From a virus, in IMG/VR virus record IMGVR_UViG_3300017527_000265, positions 1 through 51,102 of that record: DNA of 51,102 bases, one strand, 5' to 3'. The notes beneath the pieces were generated by a model. The model was not told the DNA's origin, did no database searches, and saw only the letters and a list, made by a program, of their open reading frames with translations. Of this stretch, positions 10,388-48,415 are shown piece after piece (position 1 is the stretch's first letter; every line of letters begins with the position of its first letter). Position numbers and translations under genes: made by a program.

Positions 10388-10686
10388 TGTCACAGTATAT
10401 TTACAAACCGTCTGTTACGACTTCATCCGGCACATGGACAGGGGACACAATGAAAATTGTTCCCGGTATTTGCTTTCAGGTATATGTGAAAGCAGCCACG
10501 GGATCTACTGTTTTTGATATAAAAATCGAAGACGCCTATGATGTTGAGGTACAGAAAATCACTGACATTACAGGGGTTGTCAACGATCTTACGAAGTTCC
10601 CGGTGGAAGGTGTTCTAACCGTTACAATCGAAAACGCAACGGCTGACGAGGCCTTTACCTTAAAAATAGTGGTTGAGGAATTTTAA
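10387..10686 (+). CDS. Small beta-rich structural protein (99 aa)
   Basis: Overlaps both neighbours by one base (TAATG arrangement). The composition is alternating Thr/Val/Ile strands (FDIKIEDAYDVEV, VLTVTIENATADEAF), typical of a small beta-sandwich in virions. No cysteines, membrane segment or known motif. Specific role unknown. Confidence 0.55.
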   Translation: MSQYIYKPSVTTSSGTWTGDTMKIVPGICFQVYVKAATGSTVFDIKIEDAYDVEVQKITDITGVVNDLTKFPVEGVLTVTIENATADEAFTLKIVVEEF

Positions 10687-20985: not shown

Positions 20986-23400
20986 ATGACGTATTCTCAA
21001 AGACTTTTAGACAAAGCTGTATCGGCGCACACACCAATAGATGAACAGGGTGGGTATGCTGATTCTTTGCTTCAAGAGACAGTCCAGCGCCACTTTGAAC
21101 CTACAGAAGAAAGAACCGCTGTCGTAAGGCCCGGTGCAAGTCCAGGTGATCCGATACCTAAATTTACAGGAAAGGGTGGCAGAGGGGCGAGCTATTGGAC
21201 TCATACAAAACAGGGGTTTGTTGATAAACCTTTTAATAAAGTCAGGATATACGCAGCAGACAGATTTCCAGAGCTTGATGAATCCGAAAGATTATCACGT
21301 TATAAAATACAAGATGGCGAAGTAATTTACAAAGCTGATGATAATAAATGGTACAGCGAATCACCTGATTTATTTCCCTATAAACTTAAAAAGTTTTTAG
21401 GTGAAACAACAGCACATTCACCGTCTATTGTATTAGGTACTCTTGGTGAATTTACAGGTGGTGCTCCCGGTGCTGTTGCTGGTGCTGCGGCTGGTGAATC
21501 AATCAGGCAGAACATAGGTGCCTACGCTTTTGGTGAGCAAGAAGAAATACCAAGTTATTTAAAAGAGGTTGGCAAGGAAGGGGTGTTAGGCGGTATTGGT
21601 TCACTTCCTGGCAGGGGTAGCGTGAGAATCCTGAGAAAAGCTGGTGGAATATCTGGTGGGGGGACAGGCAGAAGGATTGTAAAAGCCGTAGGCCCAGAAC
21701 TGCCGACAATTAATTTTAAAAAGGCTGCTAAACTACAAAAGTCTGTAAAAAAAGAATTTGGCGTTGATCTTTTTGATGCACAAACAACCGAAAGTCGGAG
21801 GCTTTTAAATCGCTTAAATCTTTACGGGGATCTGCCGGAAACTTCGGATCTTGTTCAAATTGCAAAGAAAATACAGGATGATAAAGCGTTTAAGGCAACC
21901 GATGACTATTTTGATGCACTCTATGATGTTGAGCCTGAACATATAAAATCAGCAGCAGTTAAAATGGATGATGGTAGTATTATACCAAAAACCGATGAAA
22001 TTCCAGTTGAAGGTGTCCTTGACGGCGAAGGGTATGTGACAAACCGTGGTCGGTGGTTGACGAAGCGTGAAGCGCAAGATGTTGCTGGAGATCCGAATGC
22101 AACGGATATTGTCGGCAGGGTTCTACCAGGAACAGACCCATTGTATGCGGGACAAAAGGTGACAGATGCGGCTAAAAAAGCGATAGATAGAGAAATCAAT
22201 GCACGGATTGCCAAAGCTCGTCCATATTATAAAAAAGCGTTTGCCAAAAAAACAAAGGTGGACATTCAGCCACACATTAATGAATTAGATGAAATGATAA
22301 GATTAACACCTGAAACTTCGCCAAGAAGGAAAGCGTTAAGCAGATACAAAAGGATGTTACACCGAACTACCAAAGTTGAAGGCAAGGATTATCTTATCCC
22401 TGAAAGCAGAATAGAACATCTTGATGAGATAAAAAAATCAACAGATGAATTGATAAATTCGTTTAAAGATGCACCGATTAGCAACCGCACGAAAAAAGAC
22501 ATTAGAACTATTAAAAACAACATACTTGACGATTTAGATGATGCCAACCCTGATTATAAAAAGGCACGGAGACTATGGGCAGATGATTCAGAAGCAATTG
22601 ATAGATTAACAAACAAGACAAAATTACAAGGCATCGCAAAATTAGAAGGGGATCAGGTTGAAAATGCAGGTCGCATGTTGTTTACCAATCTAAGAAACAG
22701 TCCAGAACTTGTAAAACGAGCAAGAGCAAGAATTATGCGAGAAGACCCTGCTGCCTGGGATGCTGCGGTAAGGATTCATATTGAAGATATTTTTAACGCA
22801 ACTGAACAAAGTGCCGAGGGGGGTGCTGCGAATACGGCTAAAATATTCAATTCATTTTACCGTAAAACTGTTGGCAAGAAAAAACAAAGGGACATTATAG
22901 CAGCGGCAATGGGTGGCGAGAATACTGAAAAATTCAAGCATTTTGAACGATTTACAGATATGCTAAGACGTACAGCCTTGGTGGTGAAAAAAGAATCAAT
23001 GACAGCGCCAAGACAGGCCATGATGAAAGAAGATGAAGCTGGAAGTGGTTTTATTGCTAAACAACTCTTAGCGTCAACAAAACCGTTGGTGACACACAGA
23101 TTGGTTACATTAAGAAAACTTTTAGAATTTCAAACAACCCGTGGCAGAAAATTAATGGCAGAGGCGATGCTTGATCCGAAAGCAAGTCGGAATTTGTTAA
23201 AAATTAGACGAATGGGCGTGAATACTGAGGCTGGGATTCGCGCTGCTTCTACTTTTTTTAGTCTTATACTGGGTGGTGAATTTAGACGACATGGGACTGA
23301 ACTTTACGAATCTTTTGAAGATTTCAAAAAAATGAATAAATTACAAAAGTCACAATTGATGGGGTTAGGGGAACTATTCCTTAAAGGAGTTTACAAGTGA
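20986..23400 (+). CDS. Large putative ejection protein (804 aa)
   Basis: Begins directly after the previous stop. The N-terminal 140 residues are charged and Pro/Gly containing. Residues about 155-190 form a Gly/Ala-rich patch (GGAPGAVAGAAAGESIR) that could insert into a membrane, and the rest is helical and basic with many Lys/Arg. This combination suits a DNA-ejection protein that forms a channel across the envelope. No lytic transglycosylase or protease motif was found. Its end overlaps the tailspike start by 4 bases. Confidence 0.5.
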   Translation: MTYSQRLLDKAVSAHTPIDEQGGYADSLLQETVQRHFEPTEERTAVVRPGASPGDPIPKFTGKGGRGASYWTHTKQGFVDKPFNKVRIYAADRFPELDESERLSRYKIQDGEVIYKADDNKWYSESPDLFPYKLKKFLGETTAHSPSIVLGTLGEFTGGAPGAVAGAAAGESIRQNIGAYAFGEQEEIPSYLKEVGKEGVLGGIGSLPGRGSVRILRKAGGISGGGTGRRIVKAVGPELPTINFKKAAKLQKSVKKEFGVDLFDAQTTESRRLLNRLNLYGDLPETSDLVQIAKKIQDDKAFKATDDYFDALYDVEPEHIKSAAVKMDDGSIIPKTDEIPVEGVLDGEGYVTNRGRWLTKREAQDVAGDPNATDIVGRVLPGTDPLYAGQKVTDAAKKAIDREINARIAKARPYYKKAFAKKTKVDIQPHINELDEMIRLTPETSPRRKALSRYKRMLHRTTKVEGKDYLIPESRIEHLDEIKKSTDELINSFKDAPISNRTKKDIRTIKNNILDDLDDANPDYKKARRLWADDSEAIDRLTNKTKLQGIAKLEGDQVENAGRMLFTNLRNSPELVKRARARIMREDPAAWDAAVRIHIEDIFNATEQSAEGGAANTAKIFNSFYRKTVGKKKQRDIIAAAMGGENTEKFKHFERFTDMLRRTALVVKKESMTAPRQAMMKEDEAGSGFIAKQLLASTKPLVTHRLVTLRKLLEFQTTRGRKLMAEAMLDPKASRNLLKIRRMGVNTEAGIRAASTFFSLILGGEFRRHGTELYESFEDFKKMNKLQKSQLMGLGELFLKGVYK

Positions 23401-25514
23401 GCAGATACAAATACCAATCCACAGCGCAAGACGGCACAGGACGCTTCATACCAAGTGCCACCATCACAGTTTATTTAGCCAATTCCACGACTTTAGCCAC
23501 GGTCTATGCTGCGGCAAGCGGCGGGTCTGCGGTGACAAATAGTGCTGTCACATCTGATTCCACTACAGGATGGTTTGAATTTTACGTGGATGACTCCGAA
23601 TATACACCCAATCAGAGGTTTAAGATCATACTTTCAAAGACCGGGTACACTTCTCAGACATGGGATTATTTAAAGATTATTCCAGATGAGACTTATGAAT
23701 ATTACGCTGACGCTACAGCGACCGACCAAGGAGCAGCGACAACAAGAGCCGATAGGAGTCTGAAAGATTTAATTGATACCATTAGCACGGCAACCGCAAC
23801 CGTTGTCATGCCACATAGCGGCACCGGAAACACTACGACACACACCTTAACGACATCTGAAACAGTTCCGGCAAATGTTAAATTGTCAATACAGTTTGGG
23901 GCTATAATAGACGGTGCGGGGACTCTAACAATTAACAGCGATTTTGACCATCCAAGAACGCAATGTTTTGGTTCTTCGATTACAGTAGAGGGACTGTCTT
24001 TTGCCTATCCTGAATGGTTTGGTGCTGCTGCTGACCCATCGACTCCAACTGATGATTTAACCGAATTTGCATCTGCTTTTACGGCTCTTGGGGCCGAGGG
24101 GGGGAGTGTCGTAATAGACGAAGGCTCTCAATATTATCTTGCCACAACCCTTACGGTTCCCGTTGGGTGCTCTCTTGTCGGAAAAAGAACCCTTTCGACA
24201 ATGGTTAGGGAAGCGTCTGATATGGAGACTTATGGGAGTTTGATATATCTAAATTCTGCTGCAAAGATAACTTTGAGTTTGGGAAGTTCAATCAGTGGTA
24301 TTAATCTTTTAAGATACGGAATAACCCTACCGACAGACAAAGCAGAAGTTGATAACTATGCTGGAACTGGTGTTTATCTTGGTGCAAACGCACACGGCGC
24401 ATACATCAGCAATATGACGATAGTAGGATTTGCAACTGGAATTGACAATTACATTTCGGGTGACGTAACCGATCCTGCAAGTTTTAGATATGCTGAAAAC
24501 GTAAAGATAGAACGCGTATTGCTTGACAACACAACTGGAATTAGGATTGGGAACTCTCTTGCAACCTTGTGGATTAATGACGTTGAGTCTCGCCCGTATT
24601 CAGGGCTTGGTGGGGATGAAAACGCTGATGACCTTGAAAGAACGGGGTATGGTATTTGGGTAGCTGGTGAAAGTGATAGCGTACACATCACAAATGCTTA
24701 CTCCTACGGATGGGCAGAAGGAATTAGGGTTGACAGCGCACACGATGTTACACTCTTAGCTTGTGGTGCAGATCATGGAACAGTAGACGCGAATACCCCT
24801 ATAGGATTCAACATCATTTCAGATGAATCAACTTTTATAAAATTGATAGGTTGTCACACTTGGGGTGCTATAAGTGTTGGTATTGTAGTAAATAATGTTG
24901 CTGCTGCCAATTCAGATACAGTGGTAATCACTGGTGGAACTTTCTCATCAACAGCCCATGTTATTCAGATTGTAGACGGTAATGCAATTATAACTGGAAA
25001 CGTAATTCGTGGCGCGACCAATGCAATAAGAATATCTGCTGATGCAGACCAAGTAATTATAAGCAATAATATTATTTCAGATGTCACTACAGCAATTTCA
25101 AGTGATGCTGGCATAGCTGATACACTTGTGCAAATTTCTAACAATTTCGTTGAAACTTTCACAAACTACACTGATAACTTAGAACTCCCTCAATTCACGG
25201 ACTCAGATGCAACACCTAGTGTCGCAAACCATAATCAGTGGAGGACTAATACTACAGGAGTAACAATAACTCGTTTTGATTATGGTTATGCAGGACAAGA
25301 AATTACAATAGTTTCAAAAGGTGCAATCGTCTACGATACGTCTTCAGCGGATAGAATTATAGGAAGTTCAGTGGATATAACTACTGCTGCTGGAGATACA
25401 ACTACTTGGGTTTGTGAAACAGGAGGTACAACCACATCAGTTTGGAGACTCAAGAGTTGGGTGGATGTTAGCCAGGATAACAAGAGTGCTGCTGAAGGAA
25501 TTTACGGCGAATAG
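23397..25514 (+). CDS. Pectin-lyase-fold tailspike protein (705 aa)
   Basis: GTG start with AAAGGAG, 7-base spacing, overlapping the previous stop. The N-terminal 110 residues (GRFIPSATITVYLANS, GYTSQTWDYLKI) look like a virion-attachment domain. SFAYPEWFGAAADPSTPTDD (residues about 200-220) is the typical entry to a parallel beta-helix, which runs to about 590 (GTFSSTAHVIQIVDG, NIISDVTTAISS); a beta C-terminal domain follows. Trimeric spikes of this type bind and often cleave surface polysaccharide. No signal peptide, so it is cytoplasmically assembled, in contrast to the next large gene. Catalytic residues not assigned. Confidence 0.7.
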   Translation: MSRYKYQSTAQDGTGRFIPSATITVYLANSTTLATVYAAASGGSAVTNSAVTSDSTTGWFEFYVDDSEYTPNQRFKIILSKTGYTSQTWDYLKIIPDETYEYYADATATDQGAATTRADRSLKDLIDTISTATATVVMPHSGTGNTTTHTLTTSETVPANVKLSIQFGAIIDGAGTLTINSDFDHPRTQCFGSSITVEGLSFAYPEWFGAAADPSTPTDDLTEFASAFTALGAEGGSVVIDEGSQYYLATTLTVPVGCSLVGKRTLSTMVREASDMETYGSLIYLNSAAKITLSLGSSISGINLLRYGITLPTDKAEVDNYAGTGVYLGANAHGAYISNMTIVGFATGIDNYISGDVTDPASFRYAENVKIERVLLDNTTGIRIGNSLATLWINDVESRPYSGLGGDENADDLERTGYGIWVAGESDSVHITNAYSYGWAEGIRVDSAHDVTLLACGADHGTVDANTPIGFNIISDESTFIKLIGCHTWGAISVGIVVNNVAAANSDTVVITGGTFSSTAHVIQIVDGNAIITGNVIRGATNAIRISADADQVIISNNIISDVTTAISSDAGIADTLVQISNNFVETFTNYTDNLELPQFTDSDATPSVANHNQWRTNTTGVTITRFDYGYAGQEITIVSKGAIVYDTSSADRIIGSSVDITTAAGDTTTWVCETGGTTTSVWRLKSWVDVSQDNKSAAEGIYGE

Positions 25515-25550: not shown

Positions 25551-25850
25551 ATGGCAGTATCAATGAACACAACTTCGGGCAATGTTTGGAAAATAACCGG
25601 CACCACCACTGCCGCACAAACCCTTCACACCGGGCCTGTGTGGATTAAAAAAATCCAGTGGAGAGCGCCTGCAACTTCAAATGACGATTTGGAAATTTCC
25701 GATAGTTTAGGAGCGACTATTATTGACTACGATGCAGTTGCTACAGGAGATGCCGGGGATATGTCCTGGGAAGATTTCAGCGAAAGCCCATATACCGGCT
25801 TGGTGGTGAATATAATGGACAGCGGAACGGTTTATATTCATATCGCTTAA
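25551..25850 (+). CDS. Small beta-rich hypothetical protein (99 aa)
   Basis: GGGAG ribosome site. The sequence has short beta strands (NVWKITGTTTAAQTLHTG, VWIKKIQWRAP) and ends in TVYIHIA. It is typical of small phage structural proteins that follow tailspike genes. No family recognised; the last protein before the signal-peptide cassette. Confidence 0.5.
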   Translation: MAVSMNTTSGNVWKITGTTTAAQTLHTGPVWIKKIQWRAPATSNDDLEISDSLGATIIDYDAVATGDAGDMSWEDFSESPYTGLVVNIMDSGTVYIHIA

Positions 25851-25861
25851 AGGAGAGAATA

Positions 25862-28800
25862 ATGAAACGATTTATTGTATTTTTTATTTTGTTAATGGCG
25901 TCTGTCAGCTACGGTCTTGAACCGGGTTTAATTGGAGTTGAAGAAGGGGATGGTTCCCCATCGGCGCATGTCTGGAAACTCATAGTGGACAATAACACAC
26001 TATCGGTGTCTGATTCTATCGCCACTATTGATATATCCGGTGCGGCTGGTGGCTCACCTATTACACTCGACATAGAAGACGACGGTGGTGACGATTCTAC
26101 TGATGTTGACGAAATCGCCACTAAAAACGATACGAATGATATTTTTACAGAACCATCCCCCGATAAGCTATACATAGACCTATCAAAAAATTGGCCTGCT
26201 GCCGATAGCGCCGATGCAGTTGCCGCTGATGCCGTAACTGATTTAGGAATAGATTGGGGAACGGGAGCTAATCAAGTCAGTCCGGCAGATTTTGCCAATG
26301 AAGATATTGGGGACATTACAATAACTGGTGGATCATGGGCAATAGATACGGTTTCTGGCGCAAATTCTGTTGATTCAGATGTTTATGTAGATGGTTCAAT
26401 AGACGCTGCTCATTTAGCCGCTGATGTTATAGATGAAGGTAAAATCGCAGATAATGGGATTGATTCCGAGCACTACAACGATGGATCAATTGATGCCGTT
26501 CACTTAGCAGCCGACATTATAGATGAAACAAAGATTGCTGATAACGGTATTGACTCCGAGCATTATAATGATGGAAGTATAGATAAGGTTCACCTAGCTG
26601 CTGATGTCATAGACGAAACCAAACTTGAAGATGAGAGTATAGACTCAGAACATTACAATGATGGTTCAATAGACCCAGCTCATTTAAATCAGACCTTTGC
26701 GGTAGCAGACGGGTTTTTGCTAGACTTTAACAGTATCACCATGACCGATACGGTGGCAGAGGGTCTAACGGTTCCTGATTGCCCTGTTTCTGGCGACCCG
26801 AATGTAGATAAAAACTTTATATGCTATGACGCTTCCGGGGACAGATTTTTGGCATGGGAGCAAGGAGAAGGATGGGTTGATACTTCTTCCGGTTCCGGGG
26901 CAGGCGCAGATGATAGTTTTATAACATATGAAACTGATGGCGACCTTTCAAATGACTTGGTTCTTACCGGTGGGGCGGGTGTTGACATAACACTGAGCGC
27001 ACCTACCGCTACACTGTCCTTTAACGCTACCGAGATAGACGCTGTCACATGGTCAGACCAAGTCAATGCTTCAAATATCTGGACGTTTGCCGTGTCGGGT
27101 ACAGACCACACCATGACGGCTGGAAATGGGCTTATGACATTCGGGGATGCTGTGACCGTGACCGACCTGTTGACCGCTTCTAATGGCGTTACAATAGGCA
27201 CTGGGACAGCTTTGACGCTCGGTGTTGTGCAGTGGGACAACGGTTCTGATGCCATTGACGGGGATGTGATTGCTAATGATACGATAGACGATGACTCTAT
27301 TGATTTCGGAGATGTCACGGGTGTAGACCTTACCCTAACAGACGCCACGGCTGTAACGGCGACAGGAACCGTACAGGGTGAACAACTTACCTCAACTGAC
27401 GATGCAGACATAAACGATGCGCTAACAGTTGGAAACATAATTATAGACGAAGCGGCTGGAACCCTTGATTTCACGGGTGTAACTTCAGCTACAATTACGT
27501 CAAGCGGATTTGGAACAATTTCGTTTGGTAATGAACACCTAATCACCACGGGTAACGCTACCGCTGCGGCCATTACCGCCACCACATCTATGTCTTTAGG
27601 TGACGGTGACAATCTTAACTTTGGAACCGGAAATTATTGGGTAGGTGAGTGGAACAATACCAATTTAGCTCTTGAATTTACGACGGCCTTAGTCGCTGCG
27701 ACTGCTACGGATGACCCGATGTTTTTTATTCAGGTTGACAGCGGTGCTGCAACAATGACCGCAGACCAAGACGTGTTCGGGGTATATAAAGGAACTACTA
27801 GATTATTCGACATTGACGAGGACGGGGATGTGTATATCCTTGGAAAATTAACCATTGTCGGAACCACAGACGATCATTTCATGGATTTGACTTCTAACGC
27901 AGGAACACCATCTAGTGCAGGCACAAATTCGATGTACGTCATTTCAAGCAGGTTTAAAATAGCAGAAGGTGGAACCGAAAAAGACATAATAACCCCGGAT
28001 GATACCGTAACGTGGACGGGCAGCACACACAGCTTTGTGGGCGTAACGAGCATGGTATTACCCGACACCGCTGATGCTGCCGGTGAGATTAGCCTTGTTG
28101 ACAGCACGGATATTCTATGGCTTGGCCTTCAAGACGGGGCAGGGGCATGGATGTCATTTGATTTTACCGGAATAGACGGTCACAACACTTATGTAATGGC
28201 ATGGGACGAAGCAAGCAATAAGTTTACAGCACAGGCACAGGCAGGTGGTTCGCCAAAATGGGACACCGTTGCAGACCCAACTGCCGATGTGAATATAATT
28301 CATCCTATTAATGTAGAAACCCAATTTACATATACAGGGAATTTCACAACAGGATCACAGTTTAATATCGAACAACTTACAGGAAACCCGACAGGTGGTG
28401 TGCTCTTTGAAGTTACAGCAGCCGATGCGAACGTCACTGTGGCTCGATTAGGTGATGGCACAAACTACACCCAAATTGGACAAACGGGAAACTTAACACA
28501 AACTGGCACAGCGGCAGCGACCTTTGCGAACGTCACAACCTTTAACGAAAATGTTGACATAAATCTCGATGCGGCTGATGAAGAAGTTACAATTAGCCAA
28601 TCTAACGCAGCCGGAACAGAAGATGATCCCCTTATTTTTATTGATGACGATAGAGAAGGAGCGACCGCTACAGAATTAGGTGAGGCAACAATAGAAATTG
28701 ATGCAGAGGGTGTGTACGCAATAAACATCCTTGACGGTTCACTTGCCGTAGAGGGCGACATTGTTCCTACTGCTACTAGCGGAGCTTCATTAGGAACTGA

Positions 28801-30814
28801 TGCTCTTGACTTTTCGGATCTATTCTTGGCTGATGGTGGTGTAATAAATATGGACAGTGGTGACGCGACCATTACACACGCTACCGCAAATCTCACCATT
28901 GCTCACACAACGGGTGATGTTGTTTTGTCTGCTGCCGACACCGATCAGGACATTACCTTCACAGTTGATGACGGTGACACCGATTGGGACGTTATGTTAG
29001 ATGGCTCTGCGGGTCAGGTTGTTATCGGCAAAGATGCTGTAGCGTTTGACTATTCAATTAAGTTTGACGCTGCCACCGCTGATGGAACAATCACATGGGA
29101 CCAAGACCCCGGAGAGTGGGATTTTGCGGCTGATATTAAAACTACTGAAGATATTGTCGTGGGCGATGGCAAGTACATAGGATCTGCTACCGACCCACTG
29201 GCGATTCAAATAGAAAATGACGGTGACGTTGTTTTCACAGATGACATTTACCTTTCTGGCAACGACCTTGTATTTGCTGCTGCTGGAACAATTAAAAACG
29301 CTGCTGCTGGTGGCTTGACTATTGACATGACCGACCCATCTGCGGGTGCAGGACAGGACTATGTGACGGTTTCGGGTACACTCCCGATAGCTGACGGTTC
29401 TGACACTTACAGGGGTGTTTATCTGAATTTCGATACCTCTGCCAACCATACAGGAACAAGCAATGCGACGGTCTTGGTAGATATAGCAGCACCGACAGGC
29501 GACCCAAACGCCAATCTTTACGGCATTAGATTGGGTAATTTAACTGGCTCTACGGGTGCTGCCGGGGAAGTTGAATATGGACTTCAGATAGGTACGGGTT
29601 GGGATTCTGACATTCATTTTGCTGACACCACGGCTGTTATAACTACGGGTGGTACACTGACGCTTGAAGGTTTGACGGTTGATGCCGGTGCAGTTTCAGG
29701 TGCGTCCACGCTTGCCATGACTTCAACATTAACGGGAGCAACTGGGATTACCCTGGGTTCAGCGACTACGGATGCTGCAAGCGATTTCACAATGATTATG
29801 GGAGCACGGGACGATGACCCACAATTTGTAATTGCCATGAGCGATGATACAAACGGTGACGTTACTATGACCACTACAAACGGTGACGATGCTGATATTT
29901 CAATTGTCTCCACCGACGATATTATGCTTGACCCAGGTGGAGATGTCATAAATTTTGTCAGCACGACAGAAACCATGTCCCTAACCAACGGGTCTAATTT
30001 ATGGACGTTTGATTCGGCTGGTGACACGTTTGTATTTAATGATGCTACGGATGTGGCAGCTACGCTATCCGCAAACGCACTAACGCTTGACAATGGTGCT
30101 ACAATCACCTTCACCGATGGCGCAAGTGATACTATCACCCATACCGACGACACCGGAATTGCAATGGTTAGTACGTCTGGTACGGTAACTATAGAAAGCG
30201 TGGTATTCACAGGCGGGGCAATGACATCTGTTGCTTCGATTGGGATGAGTGGAGCAATTACTCTTGGAAACGGCGAAATTATAACCAACGCTACGGTAGA
30301 TGATGAAATTGAACTTACAACCGATGACAAGGAAGGAATTATTTTTGACCTTGACACGGGGACTGCGAACGAGGTTGCTATCTTGAGCGGAACCGGCAAG
30401 GGCGTAACCGAGATAAACACCGCACTTAATTTTGTAACTACTGGTATAATTCACGGTGCAATTAAAATTTCAGCTAAATCTGGTGGCTATACTGTTGGGT
30501 CTGATGATCCACATGAATCCTACGGAACAATGTTTGTAAACACAGGTGCAAATAAATACCAACTCCCAACGCCGGCAGCAGGGATGAATTTCTGTATTAT
30601 GTCTGCACAGGGAGACACGAATATTATAACAATTGCGATAGCTGATGCTGACTACATCGTTATTGATGGGGTTAGGGGAACTATCGAAAACAATGATGAT
30701 GCGGCAGAGATTGCTTCCTTGGGGGCAGCGGGTGATCAGATATGTCTAATCGCATACGACGCAACCGACTGGTATGTAATTTCAGATAAAGGAACGTGGG
30801 CCGAAACACCATAA
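25862..30814 (+). CDS. Giant fibre-like protein with Sec signal peptide (1650 aa)
   Basis: AAAGGAGAGAAT precedes the ATG. Residues 1-18 (MKRFIVFFILLMASVSYG) are a good Sec signal peptide, odd for a virion protein. Residues 177-275 contain three 30-residue repeats (start DGSIDAAHLAADVIDE) plus a partial one, as in tail fibres. The rest is Thr/Asp/Ala-rich beta-strand repeats (ADTADAAGEISLVDS type), and the end (YDATDWYVISDKGTW) resembles fibre C-termini. Either an exported fibre-like protein or a virion fibre with a signal-like N-terminus. It contains long antisense open frames, which I treat as shadows of its biased composition. Function beyond this is unknown. Confidence 0.6.
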   Translation: MKRFIVFFILLMASVSYGLEPGLIGVEEGDGSPSAHVWKLIVDNNTLSVSDSIATIDISGAAGGSPITLDIEDDGGDDSTDVDEIATKNDTNDIFTEPSPDKLYIDLSKNWPAADSADAVAADAVTDLGIDWGTGANQVSPADFANEDIGDITITGGSWAIDTVSGANSVDSDVYVDGSIDAAHLAADVIDEGKIADNGIDSEHYNDGSIDAVHLAADIIDETKIADNGIDSEHYNDGSIDKVHLAADVIDETKLEDESIDSEHYNDGSIDPAHLNQTFAVADGFLLDFNSITMTDTVAEGLTVPDCPVSGDPNVDKNFICYDASGDRFLAWEQGEGWVDTSSGSGAGADDSFITYETDGDLSNDLVLTGGAGVDITLSAPTATLSFNATEIDAVTWSDQVNASNIWTFAVSGTDHTMTAGNGLMTFGDAVTVTDLLTASNGVTIGTGTALTLGVVQWDNGSDAIDGDVIANDTIDDDSIDFGDVTGVDLTLTDATAVTATGTVQGEQLTSTDDADINDALTVGNIIIDEAAGTLDFTGVTSATITSSGFGTISFGNEHLITTGNATAAAITATTSMSLGDGDNLNFGTGNYWVGEWNNTNLALEFTTALVAATATDDPMFFIQVDSGAATMTADQDVFGVYKGTTRLFDIDEDGDVYILGKLTIVGTTDDHFMDLTSNAGTPSSAGTNSMYVISSRFKIAEGGTEKDIITPDDTVTWTGSTHSFVGVTSMVLPDTADAAGEISLVDSTDILWLGLQDGAGAWMSFDFTGIDGHNTYVMAWDEASNKFTAQAQAGGSPKWDTVADPTADVNIIHPINVETQFTYTGNFTTGSQFNIEQLTGNPTGGVLFEVTAADANVTVARLGDGTNYTQIGQTGNLTQTGTAAATFANVTTFNENVDINLDAADEEVTISQSNAAGTEDDPLIFIDDDREGATATELGEATIEIDAEGVYAINILDGSLAVEGDIVPTATSGASLGTDALDFSDLFLADGGVINMDSGDATITHATANLTIAHTTGDVVLSAADTDQDITFTVDDGDTDWDVMLDGSAGQVVIGKDAVAFDYSIKFDAATADGTITWDQDPGEWDFAADIKTTEDIVVGDGKYIGSATDPLAIQIENDGDVVFTDDIYLSGNDLVFAAAGTIKNAAAGGLTIDMTDPSAGAGQDYVTVSGTLPIADGSDTYRGVYLNFDTSANHTGTSNATVLVDIAAPTGDPNANLYGIRLGNLTGSTGAAGEVEYGLQIGTGWDSDIHFADTTAVITTGGTLTLEGLTVDAGAVSGASTLAMTSTLTGATGITLGSATTDAASDFTMIMGARDDDPQFVIAMSDDTNGDVTMTTTNGDDADISIVSTDDIMLDPGGDVINFVSTTETMSLTNGSNLWTFDSAGDTFVFNDATDVAATLSANALTLDNGATITFTDGASDTITHTDDTGIAMVSTSGTVTIESVVFTGGAMTSVASIGMSGAITLGNGEIITNATVDDEIELTTDDKEGIIFDLDTGTANEVAILSGTGKGVTEINTALNFVTTGIIHGAIKISAKSGGYTVGSDDPHESYGTMFVNTGANKYQLPTPAAGMNFCIMSAQGDTNIITIAIADADYIVIDGVRGTIENNDDAAEIASLGAAGDQICLIAYDATDWYVISDKGTWAETP
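26390..26686 (+). repeat. Three tandem 90-bp coding repeats plus partial copy
   Basis: Copies start at 26390, 26480 and 26570, with a partial fourth at 26660-26686. Each encodes 30 residues beginning DGSID and ending SEHYN. Third codon positions differ between copies, so they are old and selected at the protein level. Confidence 0.85.
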
Positions 30815-30822
30815 GGAGAATT

Positions 30823-31161
30823 ATGAAAAAACTAATATTAGTATTACTGGCAATCATGTTTGCGACAACCGCAAACGCATGGACACTTAAATGGGACGCT
30901 GTGACAGGGGTAGACGGGTATAAGCTATTCCACAAGGACTTATCCGCAACGTCCTTTACGGAAATTGACGTTGGGACTTCCGCTTCCTACGACCTAACGC
31001 CACTTAACTTATCGGTCGGTACGAGGTATGAGTTTTACGTTATCGCTCACTCACAGGGGTCTACGAGTGCCGAATCTGATCATATCAGGTGGACAGTTCC
31101 AGTTGACCCAATTGTAATTGAACTACCTGACTCACCACAGAGATTGGTGATCGAATTTTAG
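30823..31161 (+). CDS. Exported fibronectin-III-like protein (112 aa)
   Basis: ATG at 30823 is chosen because AAGGAGAA lies 3-8 bases upstream; the GTG at 30796 lacks this. Residues 1-19 (MKKLILVLLAIMFATTANA) are a textbook Sec signal peptide with an AxA cleavage site. The mature part is a single small beta-sandwich (WDAVTGVDGYKLFHKD, then TRYEFYVIAHSQGSTSAESD), matching the fibronectin type III pattern. Probably a binding module outside the cytoplasm. Confidence 0.65.
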   Translation: MKKLILVLLAIMFATTANAWTLKWDAVTGVDGYKLFHKDLSATSFTEIDVGTSASYDLTPLNLSVGTRYEFYVIAHSQGSTSAESDHIRWTVPVDPIVIELPDSPQRLVIEF

Positions 31162-31169
31162 GAGTGGTT

Positions 31170-31985
31170 ATGAAAAAACTAAACGCTTTATTATGTTTTT
31201 GTTTACTGACATTTGTATCATCTCAAGCGGCAATAATTGAGGTTGCTCCGGCTGATGCCAGAATGACCACTATGATTGTGGGTGGGCAGACGGTGGATGG
31301 TGACTCCGCTCTTTACACCGCAGCTACGGTAATTTTTGATTTTGAGCAAAGTGCAGTTGCCACTAAAGGCGGGCATACTTTAACCCCTGCTGTTAATGCT
31401 CCGACATATAGTAACGCCTCTGCCCATGCTGGTACTCAGTATGGCAGTTATTATGCTGTATTTGATGATGCTGATGACGAGCATTTTACATTAGCCGATC
31501 ATGCTAATTTTGACTTTGACGATACTGATTATGCTATAGCCTTTTGGTATTACCCAGAAGCGACTTATGCAACACATATTACGTCAAAATATGATGGGAG
31601 CAATGGCTGGAGGCTCCAAAGTAACTATTCCGACACTAATAAATTAGTAATGCTGCACACCAGTGAGTATTGTTACAGTGGTTTTACGCCAGATATAAAC
31701 ACTTGGTATCATGTTGTTTTATCATACGATCAATCAGATAATGAAATTACGTGGTGGATCACAAAAGCAGGGGAGGCACATGGTAGTGAGGTAGATAATC
31801 AGGCTGTTGCACAGACGACAACGCCCACTTCCAACTCAACCACACTTTATGTAGGAAGTTATTCGACCACTGCAACATTAAATGGTAATTTGGACGAACT
31901 TGTGTTCTTCAAGGGTCGAGAAGTAAATGACGCAGAAGCCCAGTCTATCTATATCGGGGCCGGATCAGGGGGATGGCGTGAATAA
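31170..31985 (+). CDS. Exported LamG/concanavalin-like protein (271 aa)
   Basis: ATG at 31170 follows AGGAG by 5 bases; the GTG at 31164 overlaps that site. Residues 1-20 are a Sec signal peptide (MKKLNALLCFCLLTFVSSQA). The mature protein carries one LamG-type jelly roll: FTLADHANFDFDDTDYAIAF, DINTWYHVVLSYDQSDNEIT, LYVGSYSTTATLNGNLDELV. It is similar to the LamG insert of the nozzle protein at 12930. Likely carbohydrate-binding outside the cell (inference). Confidence 0.65.
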   Translation: MKKLNALLCFCLLTFVSSQAAIIEVAPADARMTTMIVGGQTVDGDSALYTAATVIFDFEQSAVATKGGHTLTPAVNAPTYSNASAHAGTQYGSYYAVFDDADDEHFTLADHANFDFDDTDYAIAFWYYPEATYATHITSKYDGSNGWRLQSNYSDTNKLVMLHTSEYCYSGFTPDINTWYHVVLSYDQSDNEITWWITKAGEAHGSEVDNQAVAQTTTPTSNSTTLYVGSYSTTATLNGNLDELVFFKGREVNDAEAQSIYIGAGSGGWRE

Positions 31986-34900
31986 GAAATTACTTTATTT
32001 TATATTTTTCATCTTGTGGTCTACCCTTGCTTTTGCTGCTGACAAGACATTTGATGCGGGAGAAACTCTTGCCCTCACAGAACACACAACCTGGGACAAT
32101 CTGTATTCTGACGCAACTTCTGGTGATTGGGCTACTGTTACTGGCGCATATAACATAACAGTAACTGGTGATACAGATATTTCCTATGTTTCGTTTCAAA
32201 ACACAGGTAGTATTGTGTTTGAAGACAGTTCTGCAATTCGTCGTTGCGTATTTGAGGGTCAATCGTCTGTAACTCTCGGCACTTCCTCCTCTGCGCTTTC
32301 AGAAAACATTATTCTGGAAAATTCAGATTTCAGAGGGCAAACAGGAACTATTGTTTTTACTGTTACAGGCAGCGACGGCGCGGCAACTGGGGATTTCTGG
32401 ATTACTAATAATACTTTTTATTACACAAGTGAAAAAACAATATACCTGACCAGACGGGACGGGTGTTTATTCAAGGGCAATGTGCTCTATAATACGCAAT
32501 TAGGAGATTGGTCGGGTGCAAGCCTGGTTTCAGGAGGTCATGATTATAGAGAAAACTTCTCAGCATTTGATGATGCCGCATCGGATTCACAGACTCGCAC
32601 TGTAATTATCGCAGGCAACCAGCCCGCTGTCACTTTCGATAAAAATTATCTTTTCTATGATTGGGATAATCCTCATCCGATTTCATTTTCGGGAACTGGA
32701 ACCGGAGGTATTGATTATTTTAGATATAATGTGTTTCAAGTTGTGTGGAACACAGATGGAGCGAATATTGTATCTGCCAACTCTGCCAGGGATATTAATA
32801 TATCATATAATTTAAATATAGGTTCAGGCTCACTAATAAACCTTGTCAACGGTGGATCAACAACGGTTACTGGTAAAAACAACACTTCTTATGGCACAAA
32901 AGAAGGTAATGGTAATGATGGTTTACTATTCCTATCTGAAAGTGGCCCCCATTCTTACACAGTGAATTTGTCGAATAACATTGTATCAGGATCGGTTGAT
33001 ATTGGTGATGCGATTAACTCGATTACTGGAACCCAAACCATTGCATCCTCTGGTTATAACTGGTTTTATAATACTACAAATGATTATGACGATATAACTG
33101 TAACCAGTGGGCCGACAAATGACACAACGGGGACTGACCCTAATTTTGTTGACGCTACCCGTAATTTAACTGATTGGTATGAGGAGCGATATTCGGACGC
33201 TTCTCCAACTAAAGCGAAAGCTGTGGCAAAACTGATTGTGAAAAACGGCTACAACTCAGGCACCAAAAAACAATCTGATGCCGAGATTACTTATGATCAG
33301 CTTGACTTAATAGAGTACGTCAGGGCGGGGTTTGTTCCAGAGGCGGCAGGGATTAATCAAGGCGGGCAGAATTATGAGGACATCGGAGCCTTGGATGACG
33401 AAGGGTGGAACCAATGGGCTGACCACTCTATTGTTAAAAACAGGCGCGACGGAGAAGATGATACAAGTGGGTCGGCATCCGTATCTATTTCTATGGCTAG
33501 AAATGAATTGGAATCTTTTCAGGTTTTTGTCTACGCCGATGGAGCAGCATTAGAAAATGTTGATGTTAGTGTCGGCACTATTTCAAAAGGAGCAAATACG
33601 ATAGATCATGTTTACATCTATAAGGAGCATTACGTTAATTGTGACACAAAGTCAAGAGTAGAATATGAGGCGGGTTATTGGCCTGATGCTCTGCTACCAA
33701 AGGTAGACAGGTATTATAATGAGGTGCGTACAGGTGTGTTTCCAGTTGATGTCACCGCATCTGATGTTCAGGGGTTCTGGATTGATTTAGGAACGACAAG
33801 TTCAACAGACCCAGGGACTTATACTGGAATTGTAACAATCACAGCAGACGGGAAAAAGGACGAGGAAATTACTATTGCGGTCGAGGTGTATGATTTCGCA
33901 CTCGATGCCACATCTAACTTTCCAGGGAATTACATTGTGCGAGCAACTGCGCTTTCTTATGGGCATGGATACGAGCAAAATTTTAATACTGCCACAAGCA
34001 TTGAAATTATCCAACAGTACATGAAACTGTATTTATACGCACGATTAACTCCGGTAATCCGTGGAGATGGCACATCTATGGCGTTCACATGGGATAGCGG
34101 CCCAAAAACTTTAACCATTACAGATTACACACCCTGGCTTGAATATATCTCTGATGCTATGGATGGCACAGCTATCACATCTGGGCCACTGAGCGGAGCA
34201 ACATTCGCAGTACAGCACATGCACAATTACGGAAACGTGGATTGGACTGGTAGTATAGCCGCTGAAGATAAAGAAACGGCAACACGGCAATACTTTCAGC
34301 AAGTTTACGATAAGTTTGAAACTGAGGGATGGGACCCGTTTAATAGATTGTATGGTTCTGTATATGATGAGCCTCCTTGCGGAGCGTCTACTACTTTTCG
34401 AGGGGAAACAAAAAACTATTGTCAGATTGTGAAAATTCAGGCAGACGACTACAATGCGATTAACACTGGTGGTCAAGGTGAATTTAAGAATGTGTATGTC
34501 CACTCAAGCATTAAAGAAGGACTAAGTGATTTTGAGGATGATGGTTTTTACGCACCAAACCAAGCAACTCTTGCATGTCGTAATTGGGATAGAGACTGTG
34601 TTCCAAATGATCCAACTGGTGGCGAACGAAGTGATTACCAAAGTGGCGGTGCTCCCTATTGGACTTACTTAGGGTGTTCTTCTCACGGTTGCCGGGAGAT
34701 GGGTGATAGTACTACTAGTAATCAAATAGACTCTTCGGCTGATGCAGTCGCAATGTATAACCGCGCAGCGTCATTTTGGAGATACTACACCGCAGCGAGT
34801 GGATCTTTTTACTGGGCAATATCGGATTTAAACTATGAGAACGATACCTATGACGATATTTTCAGCGAAGAGTTTGAGGGTAACGGAGAAGGGCATTTAG

Positions 34901-35259
34901 TTTATCCGGGCATTGTGGATAAAGCAGATAGAACATGGGTAGATGGATCGTACTCCGGCAATGGAGATAGCACCCCTGAACTCGGAGGTATAAACGATAT
35001 TCCGATAGCTTCAATGCGCTGGAAGTACCTCAGAGACCAACAGGAAGATTTAGAATATTTCAAACTGGCCGAAGAATCAACCGATAGAGCTACTGTTTTA
35101 GCGACAATCAAATCTGTTTTTAATGACGAGACTGACATTAGATTCGCTTATTGGGATCTTAATATGAGTCCTACTGTTTTGCTTACAGCAAGAGCAGGTG
35201 TTGCGAATTTGATCGACAGCGGTGCAACAATCTCCGGCATGACCATAGGTAAAAAATGA
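31978..35259 (+). CDS. Exported beta-helix/GH123-like glycosidase (1093 aa)
   Basis: GTG at 31978 overlaps the preceding gene by 8 bases and follows GGGGGA; it puts a signal peptide at the very start (MNKKLLYFIFFILWSTLAFA). Residues about 30-430 form a parallel beta-helix (NITVTGDTDISYVSFQNTG, ILENSDFRG). Residues about 478-1030 match the GH123/DUF4091 pattern: ARNELESFQVFVY, YDEP at Y796-P799 with the adjacent Asp-Glu pair described as catalytic in GH123, and WKYLRDQQEDLEYF at the end. GH123 enzymes release N-acetylgalactosamine; substrate here is inference. C-terminus GATISGMTIGKK recurs in the next protein. Confidence 0.65.
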   Translation: MNKKLLYFIFFILWSTLAFAADKTFDAGETLALTEHTTWDNLYSDATSGDWATVTGAYNITVTGDTDISYVSFQNTGSIVFEDSSAIRRCVFEGQSSVTLGTSSSALSENIILENSDFRGQTGTIVFTVTGSDGAATGDFWITNNTFYYTSEKTIYLTRRDGCLFKGNVLYNTQLGDWSGASLVSGGHDYRENFSAFDDAASDSQTRTVIIAGNQPAVTFDKNYLFYDWDNPHPISFSGTGTGGIDYFRYNVFQVVWNTDGANIVSANSARDINISYNLNIGSGSLINLVNGGSTTVTGKNNTSYGTKEGNGNDGLLFLSESGPHSYTVNLSNNIVSGSVDIGDAINSITGTQTIASSGYNWFYNTTNDYDDITVTSGPTNDTTGTDPNFVDATRNLTDWYEERYSDASPTKAKAVAKLIVKNGYNSGTKKQSDAEITYDQLDLIEYVRAGFVPEAAGINQGGQNYEDIGALDDEGWNQWADHSIVKNRRDGEDDTSGSASVSISMARNELESFQVFVYADGAALENVDVSVGTISKGANTIDHVYIYKEHYVNCDTKSRVEYEAGYWPDALLPKVDRYYNEVRTGVFPVDVTASDVQGFWIDLGTTSSTDPGTYTGIVTITADGKKDEEITIAVEVYDFALDATSNFPGNYIVRATALSYGHGYEQNFNTATSIEIIQQYMKLYLYARLTPVIRGDGTSMAFTWDSGPKTLTITDYTPWLEYISDAMDGTAITSGPLSGATFAVQHMHNYGNVDWTGSIAAEDKETATRQYFQQVYDKFETEGWDPFNRLYGSVYDEPPCGASTTFRGETKNYCQIVKIQADDYNAINTGGQGEFKNVYVHSSIKEGLSDFEDDGFYAPNQATLACRNWDRDCVPNDPTGGERSDYQSGGAPYWTYLGCSSHGCREMGDSTTSNQIDSSADAVAMYNRAASFWRYYTAASGSFYWAISDLNYENDTYDDIFSEEFEGNGEGHLVYPGIVDKADRTWVDGSYSGNGDSTPELGGINDIPIASMRWKYLRDQQEDLEYFKLAEESTDRATVLATIKSVFNDETDIRFAYWDLNMSPTVLLTARAGVANLIDSGATISGMTIGKK

Positions 35260-36842
35260 AAAAGCTACCATTCTTAATAGCTGCTTTAATATGCTGGATC
35301 TTGGCATTGTTTTGCATCCTGGGGATTGCTGATGCTGCGACATACTACTACGGTGAGAGTGCAGCCGGTGACGAGGGTGCGAGTAGTTGCGCTAACCGTG
35401 ATGATATAGCTGGACTTAACGCTGATGCACAGTCTATGGTGGCTGATGATACTATCTATCTTTGTGATGACGAAGTGATTAGGACAATGATAACCGTGCC
35501 TGTGTCTGGTTCAGTGGATAGTCCTATAACTTATACTTCGGCACCGGGAGATAGCACCGTGATTAGTGGGGCTGATGTAATAACAGGATGGTCGTCTGGT
35601 GGGAATGGGTATGTAAAAGAAAACATCGGTCAAGCGGGATATGATAATTGTACTGTTGTTTTAGTTGATGGAAGCACTTTATTAACATTTAATGCCGATG
35701 GTGATGAAACAGATATGGCAGAAGGGGAATTCTATCATACTGGTGTGGATGATGATCTTTACATACGACTTTCTGGCGATGCTAATCCATCAGGTTATAC
35801 GATAGAGGCTCAAATTAGGATAGCTTCAATAAGGGCAACTGGTAAGGACTATATTGATATAGAAAATTTACAATTACAGGGTGGCGTATACGGTATTTGG
35901 CTTTTTAAGAATGATGATTACTGGAACATAACAGGCAATACTGTCAAATACACTGGTTCAAAAGGCATAAAATTAGAAGGTGAAAGTGGGCCAGTCACAA
36001 ATAATACAGTGACAAAAAACACTCTTCAATACATCGGTGGCGCAGGTGTTACAGACATTAGCCCTTTTGCAATGCATATAGATGCTGATGCTGGATTTCC
36101 TAGTATCAATAACGTTATTTCAGAAAATTTAATTGAGTATCCCCAACTTGGTTTTATCTACATATCCAACTCTGACTCAAACACCATTACAGGAAATAAG
36201 GTGCTTGGGGTAACTGCAAGTAATACTATTCATCTTACTGGCAGCGATAGCAATATAGTTGGATATAACATTATTGAAACCTCTGGTGATTGGGGTATCG
36301 GGATAGCTGACGGTTCACAGGACAATAAAATTTACAATAACACTATTGACGGAACTGGGACAAATGGTGGTTGCATAAGAGCTTATAGTACCGCAGGTAG
36401 CGCCAATTTGATAAAAAATAACATCGTATATGGTGCTTTAGGTTTACGTGTTGATAGCGGTGGAGAAACCGATTTAGAGTCTGATTATAATTGCTTTTAT
36501 AGAAGTGCGGGAGACATTGTGACATGGGCGGGAACGGGTTATAATGATTCTGAATTTACAGACTACAAAACTGCGTCGGAGCAAGATGCGGAGTCTATTA
36601 CATCAGACCCACTCCTAACCGACCCCGGCAACGATAACTTCACCCTGCAATCCACAAGCCCCGCAAAAAATACAGGCGTAGATTTAGGTGATACATATAC
36701 CAACGGTTTAAATCACAACTCGTCATGGCCGGATTCTGTTTCAACGTTAAACCAGGATAACTATGGATCGGGATGGGAAATCGGGGCTTTTGTATTTACT
36801 GGCGCAACAATGTCAGGCATAACGATAGGCAAGATAGAATGA
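35256..36842 (+). CDS. Exported parallel beta-helix protein (528 aa)
   Basis: Overlaps the previous stop by 4 bases (ATGA). Signal peptide at residues 1-27 ends ADA. From about residue 150 to 440 the repeating asparagine ladder (YWNITGNTVKYTG, NNTVTKNTLQYIG, SNTITGNKVLG, DNKIYNNTIDG) is a right-handed beta-helix of pectate-lyase type, as in many polysaccharide-active proteins. TDPGNDNFTLQSTSPAKNTG is the usual end-cap. C-terminus GATMSGITIGK nearly repeats that of the previous protein. Likely acts on or binds glycans outside the cytoplasm. Confidence 0.65.
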   Translation: MKKLPFLIAALICWILALFCILGIADAATYYYGESAAGDEGASSCANRDDIAGLNADAQSMVADDTIYLCDDEVIRTMITVPVSGSVDSPITYTSAPGDSTVISGADVITGWSSGGNGYVKENIGQAGYDNCTVVLVDGSTLLTFNADGDETDMAEGEFYHTGVDDDLYIRLSGDANPSGYTIEAQIRIASIRATGKDYIDIENLQLQGGVYGIWLFKNDDYWNITGNTVKYTGSKGIKLEGESGPVTNNTVTKNTLQYIGGAGVTDISPFAMHIDADAGFPSINNVISENLIEYPQLGFIYISNSDSNTITGNKVLGVTASNTIHLTGSDSNIVGYNIIETSGDWGIGIADGSQDNKIYNNTIDGTGTNGGCIRAYSTAGSANLIKNNIVYGALGLRVDSGGETDLESDYNCFYRSAGDIVTWAGTGYNDSEFTDYKTASEQDAESITSDPLLTDPGNDNFTLQSTSPAKNTGVDLGDTYTNGLNHNSSWPDSVSTLNQDNYGSGWEIGAFVFTGATMSGITIGKIE

Positions 36843-37065: not shown

Positions 37066-37527
37066 ATGACACAATCTGATGATTGTAAACATTGCTTAAC
37101 TGGGATAGGTGAATTAAAAGGCCAACTTATGATTTTAAACGGCTCCATAATGAAGATTTTCTATGCGCTTATAGCCTTGGCCGGAGCATCTGTAGGTACG
37201 AAGTTTATAGGGACGCCGTGGTACATTGATATTGCGATGCACGCGACCATGTTTTCTGCGATTTTCGTAGGGCTTATCACAGTCGCTAAACGTAAGTGTT
37301 TGTCGAGATGGGAGAAATTTATCAGGGTTACGTTTGTCACGTATTGCGCGTATATCACGACATTGCGAATCTTTCATTACCAGACTGGAACAGCTTTGAC
37401 GCAAAATGAAGGCGCGATTGCAAATCTATTGATAACCACATTGGCAATTGGATTTATCGGACTCGCATGGAGGCGGGACTCACAACGACGAGATGGAAAA
37501 CGGAGATATGATGACAGCAAGGTGTGA
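37066..37527 (+). CDS. Four-segment membrane protein, possible holin (153 aa)
   Basis: AAGGAG ribosome site. Four hydrophobic segments, at about residues 29-47, 55-75, 85-103 and 119-134. Both ends are hydrophilic; the C-terminus is basic (RRDSQRRDGKRRYDDSK). The N-terminus has a CKHC pair. Position at the end of the late gene run is where holins occur, but no endolysin is nearby, so holin is a guess. Confidence 0.5.
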   Translation: MTQSDDCKHCLTGIGELKGQLMILNGSIMKIFYALIALAGASVGTKFIGTPWYIDIAMHATMFSAIFVGLITVAKRKCLSRWEKFIRVTFVTYCAYITTLRIFHYQTGTALTQNEGAIANLLITTLAIGFIGLAWRRDSQRRDGKRRYDDSKV

Positions 37528-44343: not shown

Positions 44344-44501
44344 CATTTGAGAAGTGGTGGCAAGATAACAGCAAGAAAATTTGGGTGCAAATCGCGCTTT
44401 TCCATCCAACAGCAGCTATAAAAAAATTATTCAAGGACTGCTGGCACGATGGGTACGTCTCAAGTGCTGAGAACCACAAAAAAAAGGAGGTTAAAAAATG
44501 A
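44340..44501 (+). CDS. Small hypothetical protein (53 aa)
   Basis: ATG in the ATGA overlap and GGAGG upstream. WWQDNSKKIWVQIALF near the front and a Lys-rich tail. The start of the lipoprotein gene lies inside its stop. No family. Confidence 0.45.
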   Translation: MTFEKWWQDNSKKIWVQIALFHPTAAIKKLFKDCWHDGYVSSAENHKKKEVKK

Positions 44502-44977
44502 AAACACTAAGTATCTGTATTATTTTCGTATTGTTGATTGTTGGATGCGCCACAATCGAAAACGCAAAGTATATGGCAACTGAAACCGCTGATTCAAAAC
44601 AGATCAATGATCGGTATACATTTGTAGTCGTCAAAACCAGAGACATACTGAGCCCTGCAACCACAACTGTAATGGTGTACGACAAACAATCAGGCACATT
44701 CGACAAGGTTGAAGGTGGATCCGGGGCCTCTGCTTTAAGTTCATTAGCCGGTCCTGCAGCTACGGCCTATGCGGGTTATCAGATTGGACGAGGTATCAGA
44801 AAGCAAAAGCCTGATACGACAACAGTAAATAACAATAGCGCCACTAAATCTGCTGCTGGCGCTGCTGCTGCGAGCAAAGCCGTTCAGGGGCAGGGTATGA
44901 TCCAGGGACAAGGCCAATCCCAAGGTCAAACACAGGGGCAAAATCAGCTTCAAGGACAGGCTCAAGAACTTTTTTAA
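44498..44977 (+). CDS. Lipoprotein with Gln-Gly-rich tail (159 aa)
   Basis: AGGAGGTTAAAAA precedes the ATG. The signal peptide ends in a lipobox IVGC, so Cys17 would be lipid-anchored in a Gram-negative envelope. The mature part has a small glycine-containing segment (GPAATAYAGYQIGRG, a possible membrane-active helix), and the tail is a run of Gln-Gly repeats. Possibly a lysis or superinfection-related envelope protein; function not proven. Confidence 0.6.
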   Translation: MKTLSICIIFVLLIVGCATIENAKYMATETADSKQINDRYTFVVVKTRDILSPATTTVMVYDKQSGTFDKVEGGSGASALSSLAGPAATAYAGYQIGRGIRKQKPDTTTVNNNSATKSAAGAAAASKAVQGQGMIQGQGQSQGQTQGQNQLQGQAQELF

Positions 44978-45197: not shown

Positions 45198-45380
45198 ATG
45201 AATGACAAATTAGCAGGAATTTTATGCGTAACTGTGATGTTTTTGTCAGTGATAGGCGCGTGGTGTTATTTGCAAAAACCGCTTGACCCCGCAATTAAGG
45301 AACTGGGTCAAATGATTATTTCAGGTATTATGGGAACGATGATAGGATTGAGATTAACCAATAAAAAGGAGGTAAAATGA
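45198..45380 (+). CDS. Small two-segment membrane protein (60 aa)
   Basis: AAGGGAGATTAAA is upstream. Two hydrophobic segments (LAGILCVTVMFLSVIGAW, MIISGIMGTMIGLRL) with a positively charged tail; the size and arrangement fit a class II holin-like protein, but this is guesswork without a neighbouring lysin. Confidence 0.5.
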   Translation: MNDKLAGILCVTVMFLSVIGAWCYLQKPLDPAIKELGQMIISGIMGTMIGLRLTNKKEVK

Positions 45381-45652
45381 GAATATTAATTATCTGTATC
45401 GTTTTAGCTTTTTGTATTCCGGCAATGGCCCAGGATCTTGAAACTTTAACTCAACAGCAAGCACAGATCACACGTGCAATGTTCCAGACATCCGGCCAGG
45501 TGCAGCTTAACAACTCGATCATAGTTGAGGCGGGCAGGCGAAGTGCAGCACTTCAGGATGAATTGGCAAGGCTTAACAATCAGTTAGGGGAGGTTCAAAA
45601 GGCAATTCGGAAGCTTACTGCGGTTACTACGGAAAAACCGAAGGTTGAATAA
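45377..45652 (+). CDS. Exported coiled-coil protein, spanin-like (91 aa)
   Basis: Overlaps the previous stop by 4 bases (ATGA), GGAGG upstream. Signal peptide (MRILIICIVLAFCIPAMA), then a single long coiled coil (LQDELARLNNQLGEVQKAIR). The combination of an exported coiled coil after a small membrane protein resembles lysis accessory genes. No lipobox. Confidence 0.5.
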   Translation: MRILIICIVLAFCIPAMAQDLETLTQQQAQITRAMFQTSGQVQLNNSIIVEAGRRSAALQDELARLNNQLGEVQKAIRKLTAVTTEKPKVE

Positions 45653-48374: not shown

Positions 48375-48415
48375 AATGTCCTCCGTGGTTAAAGTTTTCA
48401 ACCTTTATATAGGAC

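Follow-up and report, generated by a model that had tools for sequence, protein, structure and literature searches.

Sec signal peptides on consecutive fibre, lectin and spike-like genes of an uncultured tailed phage and on annotated virion proteins of cultured phages

Signal peptides and domains of the five-gene cassette

We analyzed a complete IMG/VR virus record (IMGVR_UViG_3300017527_000265) of 51,102 bases, the whole of which is referred to as the window, and examined five consecutive open reading frames (ORFs) at 25862-36842 on the plus strand. These encode proteins of 1650, 112, 271, 1093 and 528 amino acids (aa), each beginning with a Sec signal peptide (SP). The window is the genome of a tailed phage, probably a podovirus-like one, with a portal/head-tail-adaptor relative and a Mu-gpT-like capsid protein at its head end and recombination genes, an N6/N4 methyltransferase and an IS1595 transposase at its far end. 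From the order of the genes, the five-gene cassette comes last in the late structural block, ahead of the lysis genes.

ORF1 (25862-30814, 1650 aa) possesses an SP at residues 1-18 (25862-25915; MKRFIVFFILLMASVSYG, with the likely cut before LEPG), fibre stem repeats at about residues 140-300, a long shaft, and a C-terminal domain common to the fibres of two other phage contigs, G004 and G003. Its repeats match fibre-like proteins of cyanophages and a Pelagibacter phage. ORF2 (30823-31161, 112 aa; SP 30823-30879, MKKLILVLLAIMFATTANA before WTLK) carries a fibronectin type III (FnIII) domain, whose match (E 3e-5) was slightly under the cutoff, and ORF3 (31170-31985, 271 aa; SP 31170-31229, MKKLNALLCFCLLTFVSSQA before AIIE) carries a Laminin_G_3/ConA-like domain (Laminin_G_3, E 2e-9). 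ORF4 (31978-35259, 1093 aa, GTG start; SP 31978-32037, MNKKLLYFIFFILWSTLAFA before ADKT) combines an N-terminal half that reads as beta-helix-like, with a weak DUF5123 match, and a C-terminal half resembling glycoside hydrolase family 123 (GH123). ORF5 (35256-36842, 528 aa; SP 35256-35336, MKKLPFLIAALICWILALFCILGIADA before ATYY) is a right-handed beta-helix (Beta_helix, E 1e-14). Fibre or spike modules were recognized in ORF1 by its repeats and in ORF4 and ORF5 by generic domains only.

The GH123-like half of ORF4 matched the Pfam family GH123_N (E 3e-7; 29.2 bits against a curated cut-off of 22) as well as PDB entries 8k2f (E 1e-10) and 5l7r, and the module is related to beta-N-acetylgalactosaminidases. 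In contrast to family 123 itself, this phage-encoded module is fused downstream of an SP and a further domain, and it is a predicted glycosidase. A candidate acid pair, within VYDEPP, lies outside the stretch covered by the PDB alignments, and the predicted model of this half had a pLDDT of 32.

The SPs were assessed with a rule-based scorer that considers the charge of the n-region, an uncharged 10-residue h-region with a mean Kyte-Doolittle value of at least 2, and small residues at -3/-1. All five ORFs passed, with AxA-type residues at -3/-1, as did two further genes of the window: 44498-44977, which encodes a lipoprotein weakly matching the Cor superinfection-exclusion family, and 45377-45652, which encodes an SP protein of 91 aa. 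Upstream of the cassette (1572-25850), 23 genes have a called start, and a comparable h-region was seen in none of them; the first ORF (1-1401), which runs off the record, lies outside this count. The scorer was calibrated on ten reference phages (lambda, T7, P22, Mu, phiEco32, SU10, one metagenomic podovirus and three marine phages), where it flagged 10 of 435 genes. With the exception of one 61-residue ORF, the flagged genes encode proteins that are exported or reside in the membrane (Lom, Bor, RexB, Rz-type spanins, a SAR endolysin and a holin), and no virion protein of the ten phages was among them. Neither a lipobox nor a Lom-type family match was found in the five cassette proteins. Five SPs in a row are well beyond chance. 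The original prediction, which had named five consecutive Sec SPs on proteins with fibre repeats, FnIII, LamG, beta-helix plus GH123-like and beta-helix domains, was therefore borne out in both respects, with the qualifications given above for ORF2 and the N-terminal half of ORF4.

It is very improbable that the SPs arise from miscalled starts or chance hydrophobic N-termini, since only 4 of 1563 internal methionines passed the scorer, clear Shine-Dalgarno sequences precede ORF1, ORF2 and ORF3, and the recurrence of the pattern in other phages, described below, largely refutes this explanation; its one foothold is ORF4, whose called GTG start sits behind AGGGGG and where an in-frame upstream ATG (31927) with no good Shine-Dalgarno sequence would add 17 N-terminal residues. 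The start of ORF5 overlaps the ORF4 stop.

Peptide motifs shared between otherwise different proteins were also noted. ORF4 and ORF5 have a common C-terminal ending (GATISGMTIGKK, 35221-35256, and GATMSGITIGKIE, 36801-36839), and across the 11 shared codons the DNA differences are confined to third positions, so the peptide itself is conserved; it is perhaps a docking tag. The residues immediately after the SP of ORF3 (IIEVAPADARMTTMIVGG) resemble those of a 270 aa lectin-like protein of G004. The N-terminus is taken up by the SP, and the post-SP and C-terminal motifs are candidates for a virion-docking element. A further common ending, ..GQVI(F/Y)..IN, was encountered on SP proteins with different bodies in three related phages, G006, G007 and G008 (L023 7910-9238, L028 8412-9065 and L024 9637-10452). 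As a searchable tag it was abandoned, as the pattern GQVIFV(E/N)IN returned only already-known phages and one chance match.

Recurrence in uncultured and cultured phages

We sought relatives of the cassette in other phages. Direct relatives of ORFs 2-5 were not found in 50,697 phage records, those of ORF4 and ORF5 were not found in IMG/VR either, and a scan with the ORF1 shaft region matched G003 alone. A search of IMG/VR with the ORF1 fibre repeat recovered 47 loci on viral contigs. The fibre gene carried an SP in approximately 13 of these (two requiring an alternative start), and most of the remaining fibre genes begin MALTxIKAxGLTADLIDETK or similar and have no SP. SP genes made up 36 of 118 genes in loci with an SP-bearing fibre and 0 of 215 where the fibre has no SP; these counts illustrate rather than test the association, as loci inside a group are not all independent. 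The three cyanophage and Pelagibacter phage fibre-like proteins examined had no SP, nor did any of the 30 genes in those three cultured-phage regions.

Across whole contigs, examples of which were identified as tailed phages by terminase, portal and capsid genes, SP genes were found within the structural blocks of podovirus-like and siphovirus-like phages alike. The pattern is not private to the window phage. The cassette of G004 follows the same order as that of the window, with a giant SP fibre, an SP lectin-like protein and two SP beta-helix proteins, the last of which is homologous to ORF5 (E 2e-17). SPs were also found on a protein matching many PHROG tail-spike families (L023 1071-2519), on a 243 aa protein between the nozzle-like and fibre genes of G007 that matches PHROG tail proteins (tail adaptor), and on a phrog_5335 protein between the capsid and connector genes of G005 and L008. 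The carriers of SPs are consequently not just glycan enzymes, given that spike, adaptor and head-region families are represented among them.

Related phages had SP-bearing and SP-less homologues at the same locus, the SP-less ones being otherwise complete. The G006 homologue of the G007 243 aa protein occupies the same position and has no SP; the window member of phrog_5335 (10686-11378, plus strand, 230 aa) has none; and, of the proteins encoded just before the fibre gene, the one in G004 (150 aa) carries an SP, and both its G003 homologue (140 aa) and the 99 aa protein found in that position of the window (25551-25850, plus strand), immediately before ORF1, lack one. A 300 aa window protein adjoining the major capsid gene (6926-7828, plus strand) is likewise without an SP and shares a homologous domain with an SP-bearing protein of G010 (14048-17518). 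Where homologous SP proteins could be aligned, the SP sequence had diverged with its character retained, and the start of the mature protein was conserved. The -3/-1 residues were AxA-like, with A at -1 in 43 of 53 SP genes, a figure that is indicative only because the choice of cleavage site favours A.

One contig, G001, encodes an 831 aa SP protein (L062 10281-12776) that reads as a podovirus nozzle and has no family match; family, neighbour-contig and PDB searches did not confirm this identity. If it were a nozzle, a core tail protein would pass through Sec.

Cultured phages of Cellulophaga supplied analogous proteins whose virion status, as annotated in GenBank, derives from tandem mass spectrometry (MS/MS). 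In phi10:1 (KC821618), four consecutive tail-end genes (gp091-gp094) annotated as structural protein from MS/MS all have an SP followed by Q, and the next gene, gp095, encodes a pectate lyase with an SP-like start. In phi18:3 (KC821620), gp085-gp087 are likewise annotated as structural from MS/MS and all possess SPs, which brings the two phages to seven SP-bearing proteins with MS/MS-annotated virion status. No SP was found on gp099, gp104, gp112, gp113 and gp114 of phi18:3 or on the other MS/MS proteins of either phage (portal, capsid, connector and others). phi46:3 (KC821622) has a run of five SP genes (gp079-gp083), four of them annotated as structural by similarity. None of the 18 MS/MS proteins scanned in phi14:2 had an SP, and none was found in the scanned MS/MS proteins of phi13:1 and phi18:1. 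Like the window, phi10:1, phi18:3 and phi46:3 have a run of tail-end fibre or spike genes whose products bear Sec SPs, beta-helix/pectate-lyase-type and repeat-bearing proteins among them, next to core virion proteins that are SP-free. Their SPs end in ..Q, whereas the window cut sites are followed by L, W or A. According to a passage of PMC10367356, the Bacteroidota signal peptidase prefers Q at +1, and the Cellulophaga phage SPs therefore seem suited to the signal peptidase of their host.

Judging by their sequences, these phages exchange SP modules as whole units. The SP and following ~80 aa of phi10:1 gp093 (L097 44100-46433) are nearly identical in phi46:3 gp080 (L100 11980-14511) and phi18:3 gp086 (L103 2545-4902), ahead of different spike bodies, and the gp093 spike body is 95% identical to that of phi46:3 gp081, which carries a different SP module.

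Virion assembly after export and alternative explanations

Textbook assembly of tailed phages is cytoplasmic. The SPs, their recurrence, and the SP-bearing MS/MS proteins of cultured phages suggest that the outer parts of some phages may pass through the secretion machinery. We consider it most likely, with a probability of roughly 0.6, that the five genes encode spikes and fibres of the virion, which would be synthesized as Sec preproteins and join the particle once exported. The cassette would then specify the outermost proteins of the virion: a long fibre, small FnIII and lectin proteins, and beta-helix spikes, one with a GH123-like glycosidase module. The host translocon would carry the five preproteins across the inner membrane, signal peptidase I would remove each N-terminus, and the products would fold and oligomerize outside the cytoplasm. 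Export and cleavage in the host of the window phage are what the N-termini predict. At lysis, the exported proteins would meet and join the particle assembled in the cytoplasm. Attachment of the P22 tailspike is the last assembly step and works also in vitro. Exported copies may in addition act on glycans at the surface of the infected cell, by binding or by cutting them, for instance through receptor cutting by ORF4.

Several points weigh against this interpretation. For the window phage the support comes from its genes, and the MS/MS annotation comes from analogous proteins of two cultured phages, which resemble the cassette in position, domain type and SP and are not detectable sequence homologues; no homology was detectable between the window proteins and the SP proteins of phi10:1 and phi18:3. 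The MS/MS annotation is also compatible with secreted proteins that adhere to particles. The near-identical module of SP and ~80 aa crosses families (phi10:1 belongs to Assiduviridae, phi46:3 and phi18:3 to Pachyviridae), which would be odd for a particle-specific docking domain. A tailspike-like protein without an SP (23397-25514, plus strand, 705 aa; identified by reading of the sequence, with no family match), directly upstream of the 99 aa gene and the cassette, may already be the receptor binder. Finally, the path by which exported fibres would reach the virion is one that we infer.

The alternative that best survives, which we regard as less likely and as partly supported, is that the cassette products are secreted and form no part of the virion, binding and cutting glycans on or around the infected cell and serving receptor removal, superinfection exclusion, exopolysaccharide digestion or release from debris. 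The Sec SPs on all five genes fit it, as do the GH123-like, LamG and beta-helix domains, a sialic-acid-esterase-type (SASA) SP protein in G009, the weakly Cor-like lipoprotein elsewhere in the window genome, and the precedent of lambda Lom, a known SP protein encoded among tail-fibre genes. However, SPs occur also on spike, adaptor and head-region virion families, analogous SP cassettes are annotated as virion by MS/MS, and a position in the late structural block just before the lysis genes is late for an exclusion role. The original prediction had favoured an exported glycan-binding and glycan-cutting cassette; its export signals and glycan domains stand, whereas we do not favour a role restricted to the infected cell and its surroundings, given the SPs on tail-spike, tail-adaptor and phrog_5335 proteins and the seven annotated virion proteins of phi10:1 and phi18:3. 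These observations leave room for proteins that act on the infected cell as well as in the virion.

The second possibility put forward in that prediction, virion fibres with an unusual hydrophobic start, is retained as to the fibres and replaced as to the start, which we read as a cleavable SP. That the hydrophobic N-terminus is instead an uncleaved anchor or assembly element of cytoplasmic fibres, or is removed by a phage protease, appears improbable. The virion-type domains of the cassette would accommodate it, and a passage of PMC10367356 describes SP-like starts on phage major capsid proteins, for which the prohead protease is the presumed cutting enzyme. Against this, the c-regions are clear, with the preponderance of A at -1 noted above; the cut sites of the Bacteroidota phages expose the +1 Q that the host signal peptidase prefers, by the rule given in the same source; and, apart from the missing SP, the homologues at the same locus are complete.

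P22-type tailspikes and T7/cyanophage-type tail fibres share with the window their position at the end of the late block and a beta-helix and repeat-rich fibre architecture, but unlike the cassette proteins they have no SP. Their folding and attachment are cytoplasmic. Among the exported proteins of lysogenic conversion, lambda Lom and Bor are phage-encoded with SPs, like the cassette, but are single small envelope proteins rather than a run of fibre, lectin and spike proteins. The open-access literature, to which the search was confined, yielded no account of fibres or spikes with SPs as a class. The nearest case comes from PMC10367356, which in the passage concerned describes phages of Porphyromonas gingivalis with multiple genes whose Sec SPs obey the host cleavage rule; that passage gives these genes no known function, suggests that they may modify the outer membrane, and draws no link to fibres or virions.

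If the proposed export of virion proteins is correct, receptor-binding proteins would encounter the oxidizing, sugar-rich envelope ahead of the virion, fibres could mask or strip the receptors of the infected cell, and lysis would time fibre attachment. For annotation, an SP on a phage gene is no evidence against a virion protein, which matters for viral carbohydrate enzymes labelled as secreted in metagenomes. Cellulophaga baltica with phi18:3 or phi10:1 offers a cultured marine system open to direct testing. More tentatively, and at somewhat less than even odds, we propose a widespread guild of tailed phages, of different morphotypes and infecting several host phyla, that finishes virion assembly outside the cytoplasm, with Sec-exported, signal-peptidase-processed spikes, fibres and some head-surface proteins docking in the periplasm or at lysis, and with exported copies that also remodel the infected cell surface.

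Neighbouring genes and the host of the window phage

The cassette is followed by a membrane (holin-like) protein of 153 aa (37066-37527, plus strand), with which the lysis region appears to start; a similar tail-end placement before lysis genes was noted in the G contigs and in phi10:1 and phi18:3. Upstream, the nozzle-like tail protein at 12930-16676 has an inserted LamG_3 lectin domain, and a homologue lies in the same region of G003.

Several pointers to the host were considered and set aside. A Bacteroidota host seems unlikely in view of the L, W and A residues at +1, in place of Q, and the strong Shine-Dalgarno sequences. The IS1595 transposase was rejected as a pointer because the family is too promiscuous, and genome-bin matches to the fibre repeat gave no trustworthy host, the fibre genes there being without SPs. 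No prophage was found in bacterial genomes, and portal relatives at ~50% identity (L002-L005) were too short to extend to the tail genes.

The IS1595-family transposase gene (47502-48401) lies inside the phage genome, adjoining a P63C-domain gene. A perfect 23-nt repeat, ATTGATGGGGTTAGGGGAACTAT, was found at 23355-23377 and 30662-30684, near the ends of two different genes and in different reading frames, against a chance expectation of 0. After the capsid gene, two tandem duplicated genes (7828-8445 and 8442-9074; E 4e-75) were noted, with two relatives in G002 that have glycosyltransferase-like genes nearby; the pair is possibly a virion-glycosylation island.

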